Source: Deltaproteobacteria bacterium
GTDB lineage: Bacteria > Desulfobacterota > Desulfobulbia > Desulfobulbales > Desulfocapsaceae
Assembly: GCA_026388715.1 (NCBI GenBank)
Contig: JAPLJF010000036.1
Coordinates: 1-64,000 of the forward strand
Length of the DNA stretch: 64,000 nt
Direction of reading: 5' to 3'
The position numbers and the translations under genes were made by a program. This document shows positions 141 to 7,919 of the stretch, in pieces. The stretch's first letter is position 1. Each line of letters starts with the position of its first letter. The notes below the pieces were generated by a model. That model had not been told where the DNA came from, ran no database searches, and saw nothing but the letters and a program-made list of their open reading frames with translations.

Positions 141-175
141 ATGTTGAAGAATGTATTTTAGTTAAAGGAGAATCC

Positions 176-391
176 ATGAAGATCATAATCGAATATTGTA
201 CAAAGTGAAACCATCAACCTCGTGCTTCCAGGTTGGAAGAGGAATTGAAGAAGGAGTTTGGCGCGGAGGTGGAGTTGATCCCTTCCACCGGTGGGGTGTT
301 TGAGATCACCGTTGACGGAAAGCTCGTATTCTCCAAGAAGGAGATGAAGCGTTTTCCTGAAGAGGGGGAGATCGCCGGATTGCTGCGGTAA
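176..391 (+). CDS. selW: SelW/SelT/SelH (Rdx) family selenoprotein with in-frame TGA (Sec) at 206-208
   Basis: Translation MKIIIEYCTK(U)NHQPRASRLEEELKKEFGAEVELIPSTGGVFEITVDGKLVFSKKEMKRFPEEGEIAGLLR*; CxxU redox motif, Rdx fold signature (IPSTGGVFEITVDGKLVFSKK), RBS AAAGGAG at 164-170, and a CAACCT/AGGTTG hairpin (215-220 / 230-235) just after TGA as a candidate bSECIS. Confidence 0.88.
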
Positions 392-410
392 CAGGGGATA
401 GGAAGCTTTG

Positions 411-935
411 TTACCTGTTCCCTGTTCCCTGTCCCTCCGGCTCCTGAGCAACAAGACAACTTGACATGCATGCATCGCAGTTGTCTCTGGTCTTGCCCTG
501 CTTGCAGTAGTCGGCAAAACCCCGGAGCAGTTCGCTGCCGCCGCGGGGGCAGATCTTGAGAAATTCGATGAAGGAGATCATGTGGGCGATGACCTCCGGG
601 GGGGCGGCATGTTCTACCCGGCAGGCGCCTTCTTCGGCCACACTGCGGTCAACGGCCAGCACCTCAATGAAAAATTGTTTCAGGGCGTCGTGGCGGAAGA
701 TGACGCTTTCTGCCGCTTTTTCTCCCTTAGTGGTCATGGTGATGGCCTCATAAGGGGCATAATTGATGAGATCTCTCTTGGCCAGGGCCCGCAGGGCCTC
801 GGTAACGGACGCGCGGCTGATTTGCAGGCGGGCGGCGATCTCTTTACTCCTGGCCACATGCTTGTCTTGAATGATATGGTATATTGCCTCCAGATAATCT
901 TCGAGACTGGCGCTGAGGGTATTTTTTTTGGGCAT
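411..935 (-). CDS. DtxR/MntR-family metal-dependent transcriptional regulator
   Basis: MPKKNTLSASLEDYLEAIYHIIQDKHVARSKEIAARLQISRASVTEALRALAKRDLI... winged-helix DtxR N-terminus; start placed at MPKKN because the upstream ORF extension reads through a repeat. Confidence 0.85.
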   Translation of the reverse strand: MPKKNTLSASLEDYLEAIYHIIQDKHVARSKEIAARLQISRASVTEALRALAKRDLINYAPYEAITMTTKGEKAAESVIFRHDALKQFFIEVLAVDRSVAEEGACRVEHAAPPEVIAHMISFIEFLKICPRGGSELLRGFADYCKQGKTRDNCDACMSSCLVAQEPEGQGTGNR

Positions 936-1161: not shown

Positions 1162-2898
1162 ATGCTATGTGAACTGAAAGTTGAAAATCTTGCTTTAATC
1201 GAATCCCTGCATCTCCATTTTGATCAGGAAGAGGGGGGTGGCCTGGTGGTGATGACCGGTGAGACCGGCGCCGGGAAATCGATCATGCTCCGGGCCATTC
1301 ATCTTCTCATGGGTGGCCGGGCGCAGGCGGACTGGATCAGAAATGGTGCGGATCAGTGTGTGGTAGAGGCGCTTTTTGTGGTCAACGCCAATCATCATGA
1401 CCTGCTGCAGGCCTTGCAGGAATCGGGATTTGGCGATGATCCCACGGTGATTCTCAAGCGGGTGCTCACCAGTGGCGGCAAGAGCAGGCTTTATGTGAAC
1501 GGATCCCTGGCAACGGCGAAGATGGTCTCCATACTGGCAGATAATCTGCTCAATGTCGCCAGTCAGCATGATCATCAACAGTTGTTGCAGCCGGCGCTGC
1601 ATCTTGATTTCCTGGATGCGCTTGGGGAACATTGGGCGGAACGGGCGCAGGTTGCCACGGTTTTTGCACAGTGGCAGCAGAAGAAGGATGAGCTGGTTCT
1701 GCTCCGTCAGCAGGAGCGGGATAAGGCCCAGCGGCGGGATTTCCTGCAGTACCAGCTGGCAGAGATCCAGCAGATTGGGCCGGTGGTAGGTGAGGATGAG
1801 GAACTGGCCGCCGAGAGAAAGCGGCTTAAAAGCGCGGATACCCTGATTGCGCTCAGCCAGAAGGTGTATCGTTTTATTTCCTCCACCCTTGTCGACGGGT
1901 TGTTTGAGGTGCGGCGTGACATGGAGCAGGTGGTGCAGCTTGACGCCCAGGTGGAAGGGCTGGCGGCCGAACTTATCGCTTACAGTTATCAGGCCGAGGA
2001 TTTTGTCAGCCAGTTACGAAGTTACAAGGATTCACTCGAGCATAATCCCGCCCGTCTTGAGCAGGTGAATGAGCGTCTCAACGCCCTGCACCATCTGAAA
2101 CGTAAATATGGCGAGACCCTGGAGGCTGTTCTCAGGTATGCGGAAGAGGCGGAGAGCGAGCTCCAGCTCATTGACAATATGGACAAGACAATGAGTGAGC
2201 TGGAGGCGGTGACAGCCGGTCTGGAACAGGAGTTGCTGCGCCAGGTTGCCGCCCTTTCGGCCAGGCGCCGTCAGACAGCCGGGCAGGTGACAAAGGCCAT
2301 GGCCGCGGAACTGGCATCTCTGGCCTTTAGCCACTCAGGGTTTGAGATTCGTTTTCAGGCGCAGGAACAAGGGCAGGAACAGGGCATTGAGGCGGTCCGA
2401 AGCCATGGTTGGGACCGGGTGGAATTCTTTTTCTCGGCAAATCCAGGCGAGCCGGCCAGGCCTCTGGCCAAGGTGGCATCCGGCGGCGAGCTCTCGCGGC
2501 TGATGCTGGCGCTCAAGTGTCTGCTGGCCAAAAAAGATATGGTGGAAACCGTCATCTTTGATGAGGTGGACGCGGGTATCGGCGGTGAGGCGGCTGAGGC
2601 GGTGGCCCGCAAGATCCAGGAACTGGCCGGTCATCATCAGGTCTTCTGTGTCACCCATCTGCCCCAGATTGCCGCCAGGGGAAACACCCATTTCCGGGTG
2701 GCCAAGCAGATGGTGCAGGGCCGCACCCTCTCTTCTTTCTCCCTGCTTGACCCGGAAGAGCGGGTGGATGAGCTGGCGCGGATGCTGGCCGGTGACTCGG
2801 TCTCGGCCCAGACCCGCGCCTGGGCCCTGGAGCTGCTGGCCAAAGGCGGTAACGGGCAGACAGGGCAGAAGGAAAAGGGGAATATGTGTCCCAGATAA
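1162..2898 (+). CDS. recN: DNA repair protein RecN
   Basis: MLCELKVENLALIESLHLHF; Walker A GETGAGKS; SGGELSRLMLALK; IFDEVDAGIGGEAAEAV; VTHLPQIAA. Confidence 0.96.
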   Translation: MLCELKVENLALIESLHLHFDQEEGGGLVVMTGETGAGKSIMLRAIHLLMGGRAQADWIRNGADQCVVEALFVVNANHHDLLQALQESGFGDDPTVILKRVLTSGGKSRLYVNGSLATAKMVSILADNLLNVASQHDHQQLLQPALHLDFLDALGEHWAERAQVATVFAQWQQKKDELVLLRQQERDKAQRRDFLQYQLAEIQQIGPVVGEDEELAAERKRLKSADTLIALSQKVYRFISSTLVDGLFEVRRDMEQVVQLDAQVEGLAAELIAYSYQAEDFVSQLRSYKDSLEHNPARLEQVNERLNALHHLKRKYGETLEAVLRYAEEAESELQLIDNMDKTMSELEAVTAGLEQELLRQVAALSARRRQTAGQVTKAMAAELASLAFSHSGFEIRFQAQEQGQEQGIEAVRSHGWDRVEFFFSANPGEPARPLAKVASGGELSRLMLALKCLLAKKDMVETVIFDEVDAGIGGEAAEAVARKIQELAGHHQVFCVTHLPQIAARGNTHFRVAKQMVQGRTLSSFSLLDPEERVDELARMLAGDSVSAQTRAWALELLAKGGNGQTGQKEKGNMCPR

Positions 2899-3947
2899 CG
2901 GCCCTGGCCCTCTTTTCCGGCGGTCTGGATTCGATCCTTGCCTGCCGGGTGGTGGCGGCGCAGGGGATCCGGGTGGTGGCCGTCAAGTTTGTGACCCCTT
3001 TTTTTGATTATGAGCTTCTGGCCGCTCCTGATGTCTACCAGGAGGAGGTCTTCAACAAGTATGGGATTGAGGTGCTCCTTGAAGACCTCAGCAGCGGCTA
3101 TCTGGAACTGCTCCATAATCCCCGGCATGGGTTTGGCAAGAACTTCAATCCCTGCATCGATTGCAAGATTCTCATGCTCGTCCGGGCCCAGGAGATGATG
3201 CCAGCCCTTGGCGCCTCTTTTCTGGTCACCGGTGAGGTGCTGGGGCAGCGGCCCATGTCGCAGCGTCGTGATACCCTGCGGGTCATTGAACGTGATTCCG
3301 GCGCTGATCGTTTCCTGCTGCGGCCCCTATCGGCCAAACTGCTTCCGGAGACCGAAGCCGAGGCGCGAGGCTGGATTGATCGGGAAAAACTGCTGGATAT
3401 GAATGGCCGCAGCCGCTCCCGCCAGATCGCCTTGGCCAGAGAGTTGGGGATCGTTGATTTTCCAACCCCGGCCGGCGGTTGTATCCTGACCGATCTTAAT
3501 CTCAGCCCCCGGATTGCCCGTATCTATCAGGGAAATTCCATTGTCAGTGTCGAAGATATCACGGTGGCGGATGTGCGCCTGCTTCTTACGGGCAGACAGT
3601 TTCTGCTTCCCGGTGGCGGCTGGTTGATCCTGGGGCGCAATGAGCAGGAAAACGTGCTGTTGCTGACCATGGTCCAGAATGATGATGCGGTGCTCTCCAT
3701 GCCGGTTCGTCCCGGTCCAACTGCCATTCTCAGACGGGCGGTGAGCTGCTATGAGCATGCCGCTCAATTGCAGGAGGCTTTGCAACTGGCGGCAGCACTG
3801 GTGGTACGTTTTGGAAAAAAAATAAAAGATAGTCCCCCGGAAGGGGAGGTGCGTGTTTCTGTGGGAAGAGAAATGCAGACCTTGACGGTTCTGCCCCTTG
3901 CTGACCAGGTGTTTCAGGAGTGGATCCTGAATGATGCTGAACGCTGA
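2886..3947 (+). CDS. PP-loop ThiI/MnmA-like thiouridylase-domain protein
   Basis: N-terminal PP-loop LALFSGGLDSILACRVVAAQGIRV; overlaps recN end; conserved TPAGGCILTD. Confidence 0.75.
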   Translation: MSQITALALFSGGLDSILACRVVAAQGIRVVAVKFVTPFFDYELLAAPDVYQEEVFNKYGIEVLLEDLSSGYLELLHNPRHGFGKNFNPCIDCKILMLVRAQEMMPALGASFLVTGEVLGQRPMSQRRDTLRVIERDSGADRFLLRPLSAKLLPETEAEARGWIDREKLLDMNGRSRSRQIALARELGIVDFPTPAGGCILTDLNLSPRIARIYQGNSIVSVEDITVADVRLLLTGRQFLLPGGGWLILGRNEQENVLLLTMVQNDDAVLSMPVRPGPTAILRRAVSCYEHAAQLQEALQLAAALVVRFGKKIKDSPPEGEVRVSVGREMQTLTVLPLADQVFQEWILNDAER

Positions 3948-7777: not shown

Positions 7778-7919
7778 GAGCCTCTTGCAAAAATGGTCTT
7801 TTCGCCCAAACTCTGCAATATGCTTAAAATTTTATCCTCGGAATATCAACTATATGCCTGCGGTAAAATTTTTCGCATGCCTTGATTTTGAACGAAAATC
7901 CTCATTTTGCAAAAGGCTC
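7778..7919. repeat. MITE-like repeat family A, copy 2 (full length, about 142 bp)
   Basis: Terminal inverted ends GAGCCTCTTGCAAAAATG / CATTTTGCAAAAGGCTC; near-identical to 1..140. Confidence 0.93.

Follow-up and report, generated by a model that had tools for sequence, protein, structure and literature searches.

A putative SelW-like selenoprotein gene with a conserved in-frame UGA and downstream hairpin in a Desulfocapsaceae bacterium

SelW-like selenoproteins carrying the PF10262 domain and a CxxU motif are tabulated in reviews (PMC13188914, PMC9312934), are one of the most frequent selenoprotein families in a large survey of marine metagenomes (PMC2398784) and were listed in 2006 for Desulfotalea psychrophila (PMC1794560), a related sulfur-cycling deltaproteobacterium of another species, which we liken to our case by its listing. 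Bacterial members of the family (SELENOW-like; PF10262, NF041051, TIGR02174) have an N-terminal CxxU and ca. 70 residues, and their TGA is followed by a bacterial SECIS. The gene described here, at the start of a window of 64,000 nt (the whole stretch of DNA analysed, from contig JAPLJF010000036.1), shows no difference of substance from them, only the exact species and locus being new. Given how familiar such selenoproteins are in bacteria, and with one on record for D. psychrophila, we regard the gene as ordinary; what it contributes is a further species for an already well-described family.

An ATG at position 176 opens a frame of 71 codons that contains an in-frame TGA (206-208) and ends at TAA 389-391, exactly as an earlier note on this DNA had claimed. 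With UGA read as Sec, its translation is MKIIIEYCTKUNHQPRASRLEEELKKEFGAEVELIPSTGGVFEITVDGKLVFSKKEMKRFPEEGEIAGLLR, a product of 71 residues with the motif C-T-K-U at residues 8-11 and Sec as residue 11. A purine-rich stretch similar to AAAGGAG precedes the gene in most relatives. Scanning the window for TGA-interrupted frames yielded a long list, mostly due to chance, in which only the frame with the TGA at 206 had the context of a CxxU Rdx protein. The features of the gene are as follows, with their basis in brackets:

165-171, + strand: Shine-Dalgarno-like AAAGGAG, 5′ of ATG 176 (sequence; relatives)
176-391, + strand: predicted CDS of a selW-like (Rdx family) selenoprotein (translation, family matches, homologues with the same TGA)
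206-208, + strand: in-frame UGA, predicted to be read as selenocysteine (TGA conservation in homologues, complete Sec machinery in the genome)
225-239, + strand: candidate upper stem-loop of a bacterial SECIS, formed by CUUCCA (225-230), loop GGU (231-233) and UGGAAG (234-239) (minimum-energy fold, conservation, wobble covariation)

The read-through product matches Pfam family PF10262 (Rdx; E 9.2e-24, 83.9 bits against a cut-off of 22.6), NCBIfam NF041051 (SelT/SelW/SelH family (seleno)protein; 106.3 bits against a curated cut-off of 88) and TIGR02174 (67.1 bits, cut-off 34.2), and its relatives of solved structure are annotated as SelW-related proteins. An AlphaFold model of the product, with a mean pLDDT of 95.8, was most similar in the PDB to 2fa8, the SelW-related protein Atu0228 of Agrobacterium (TM-score 0.93, 1.1 Å), and also resembled mouse SelW (2npb, TM-score 0.70). 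According to this model, the product has the thioredoxin-like Rdx fold. Atu0228 is a Cys form of Rdx with the same fold and a CxxC motif, whereas the product from the window has CxxU; when the protein is aligned with Cys forms, C8 and residue 11 are invariant and CxxU lines up with CxxC.

A homologue was found in 61 of 78 related genomes, and nearly all the matches have a single TGA, in the corresponding position. Extending the comparison to 131 homologous loci, from relatives and many other phyla and with some genomes counted via two collections, the codon for residue 11 was TGA in 117 and Cys (TGC or TGT) in seven, the rest being partial matches or having a misplaced anchor codon. The nearest named loci are from Desulfocapsa and from Desulfocapsaceae and Desulfobulbaceae MAGs, which points to a Desulfocapsa-like deltaproteobacterium (Desulfobacterota) as the host. 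Nucleotide differences 3′ of the TGA accumulate at the third codon position (5/1/10, 6/4/23 and up to 11/9/32 for positions 1/2/3), which indicates that the part downstream of the UGA is under protein selection.

The genome carries the complete set of genes for selenocysteine synthesis and insertion: selA (C36:1026-2375, 614 bits), a single selB over the cut-off (C34:8471-10381, 392 bits), selC (C25:203447-203540, 70.6 bits with RF01852, and called tRNA-SeC by ARAGORN) and selD (C25:161437-162375, 377 bits), the last itself with one in-frame TGA. No tRNA was found within the 64-kb window. The earlier note had predicted SelA, SelB, SelC and SelD in the host, and held that a genome lacking selA, selB and selC would speak against the gene; the presence of all of them, together with the PF10262 and NF041051 matches and the homologues, bears out what the note took the gene to encode, a selenoprotein of the SelW/Rdx type carrying Sec as residue 11. 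In one relative (G016) we found selB, a UGA-containing selW and a selC*-like tRNA, but neither the canonical selC nor its flanks, so that an assembly gap is possible.

In the published model of the bacterial SECIS, an upper stem of 4-16 bp closes a loop of 3-9 nt, with a G in the first two loop positions, a distance of 16-37 nt from the UGA and an MFE of -7.5 kcal/mol or lower (PMC13188914). The hairpin at 225-239 agrees with this model in stem, loop, spacing and energy: it has 6 bp, lies 22 nt after the UGA, has an MFE of -9.3 kcal/mol and is part of the minimum-energy structure. Among 110 distinct TGA-containing homologues, 94 % of the pair cells hold, 82 sequences are fully paired and the first loop base is G without exception. 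When synonymous codons were redrawn with the proteins held fixed (300 runs), only 64 % of pair cells were expected to hold (maximum 69 %) and five sequences to be fully paired (maximum 12). The Cys homologues (n = 7) keep just 0-3 of the six pairs.

Positions 226 and 238, which pair in this stem, are both wobble positions, of an Ala codon (224-226) and a Glu codon (236-238). Of the 36 homologues that encode Ala and Glu at these sites, 30 have T-A and six C-G, and none has a mixed combination (Fisher p 5e-7, without correction for relatedness). A tree of 102 homologues requires 17 and 12 changes at positions 226 and 238 taken separately and 18 taken jointly, indicating that they mostly change together; an independent-pairs test restricted to supported branches, which is underpowered, gave agreement in about three of four pairs (p 0.25). 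As judged from these alignments, compensatory changes have maintained the hairpin to a degree that constraint on the protein does not account for. The fold energy of the single sequence was not unusual compared with shuffles (z -0.06 and -0.57), and the case for a SECIS is therefore a comparative one. The Rfam model SECIS_1 (RF00031) gave no match here, which is uninformative because it was also silent in every control genome.

The earlier note had proposed a different, overlapping stem as the candidate SECIS, CAACCT (215-220) with AGGTTG (230-235) and the loop CGTGCTTCC. This stem is literally present in the sequence, but it does not hold as a conserved SECIS: across the 110 homologues only 58 % of its pair cells are kept and seven sequences are fully paired, and the 12 nt between the UGA and its loop fall short of the 16-37 nt of the published model (PMC13188914). 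The comparative evidence supports the 225-239 hairpin in its place, and the SECIS can now be assigned to it.

We give a probability of about 96 % to the reading, drawn from sequence comparison, that the gene encodes a SelW-like selenoprotein of the Rdx family, of the standard bacterial type, with Sec inserted at UGA 206 in dependence on SelB and the hairpin. Translation would initiate at ATG 176; by analogy with the family, SelB bound to the 225-239 hairpin would bring Sec-tRNA-Sec to UGA 206 instead of termination, and translation would then run to TAA 389. The predicted product is a thioredoxin-like protein of 71 residues whose redox motif, Cys8-x-x-Sec11, sits in the loop that follows the first strand. 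Going by the family, its most likely role is that of a small thiol/selenol oxidoreductase; we know of no established substrate for the bacterial SelW-like members.

The most unusual thing near this finding, though outside the window, is a second tRNA-Sec-like gene (L002:1501-1599(-), equal to G000:C4:19021-19119(-)) with an RF01852 match of 58.5 bits, over the cut-off. It has a UCA anticodon, D and anticodon stems of 6 bp, acceptor and T stems of 7 and 5 bp, a G1:C72 pair, U73 and an encoded CCA, and it was not called by ARAGORN. It lies between hdrA-like and mvhD-like genes, directly in front of the latter. Nearly identical copies occur in four other genomes of the genus (L181-L184, in G006, G009, G012 and G016), making five with the host, and one compensatory change in the variable arm distinguishes the genus copies; L185 and L186 are more distant relatives. 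An extra, apparently degenerate copy with a mismatched acceptor stem was found in G006 (L192, C62:6722-6820). Two further tRNA-like sequences with a long variable arm, in G011 (L191, C90) and G006 (L193, C114), matched the tRNA-Sec model at a borderline 46-48 bits. Compared with its relatives, the hdrA-like frame has a small deletion at ca. 3020 of L002 and thereby acquires an in-frame stop, through either a genuine lesion or faulty assembly.

In the delta-proteobacteria, the published selC* tRNA-Cys have U73 and can have a UCA anticodon, with an 8/4 acceptor branch and an A51a bulge as hallmarks, and are linked to a downstream selB* and, in the Desulfobacterales, also to a downstream cysS* (PMC7609411). 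The second tRNA resembles them in its tRNA-Sec-like shape, U73 and UCA anticodon, but differs in being 7/5 instead of 8/4 and in having an mvhD-like gene next to it and no adjacent selB or cysS. In a genome from the same taxonomic order (G056), a second selB-like gene (C104:7084-8205) sits immediately beside its own selC*-like tRNA, an arrangement described for selC*-selB* loci.

This tRNA and its likeness to selC* give some footing to the idea that the UGA of selW is read as Cys, always or under selenium shortage, by a second tRNA-Cys with a UCA anticodon. We consider this very unlikely. No such tRNA was found in most relatives, and they nevertheless keep the UGA of selW and the hairpin, so that the second tRNA is not needed to explain the gene; besides, the conservation of the hairpin points to SelB-dependent delivery of Sec, the hairpin is lost in the true Cys homologues, and no second selB over the cut-off was found in the genome. 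Slightly less improbable, while still a long shot, is that the genus decodes UGA in two ways, as Sec with the canonical tRNA-Sec and SelB and as Cys with the selC*-like tRNA (U73, UCA). With such dual decoding, selW and other genes with UGA would give Sec or Cys forms according to selenium supply, and the second tRNA, if charged with Cys, would matter more than selW itself.

The remaining alternatives to a SelW-like selenoprotein gene have next to nothing in their favour. The TGA does formally interrupt the frame, as expected of an ordinary stop in a broken Rdx pseudogene with a decaying downstream part, or of a sequencing error; this is hardly credible given the recurrence of the same TGA across the homologous loci, the third-position bias and the Sec machinery, and what follows the UGA in homologues is an intact frame, not the degraded region that the earlier note had named as evidence against the gene. 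A real gene on the opposite strand is just as implausible: the antisense ORFs 158-517(-) and 214-471(-) are, as previously noted, the longest uninterrupted frames at the locus, but they exist mechanically, the sense frame matches families over curated cut-offs, and the antisense frame that is open in the window has stops in 10 of 12 relatives of the genus. Automatic gene calling would miss the selW-like gene, conserved as it is, and leave the antisense ORFs standing in its place; its annotation is corrected here.

The ca. 140 bp directly 5′ of selW, at the edge of the contig (1-141), form a repeated, MITE-like element with nine other copies in the genome at 97-100 % identity and several at 83-86 %; another copy lies at 7780-7919 of the window. 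Close relatives have a different region upstream of selW in place of this element, whose position implies that transcription of selW is not assured here; the native promoter may have been displaced by the element. Downstream, selW is followed by two neighbours:

411-1121, - strand: convergent gene for a DtxR/MntR-type iron-dependent repressor (PF01325, PF02742; Pfam and gene order)
1162-2898, + strand: recN, a conserved neighbour (Pfam and gene order)

The true start of the repressor gene is probably near 941. The arrangement of selW, the convergent dtxR-type gene and recN, the latter in the same direction as selW, is kept in most of the family members examined. The end of recN is overlapped by a gene situated 3′ of it (2886-3947, + strand), coding for a protein with ThiI-like and NFACT-R domains that is conserved in the genus.
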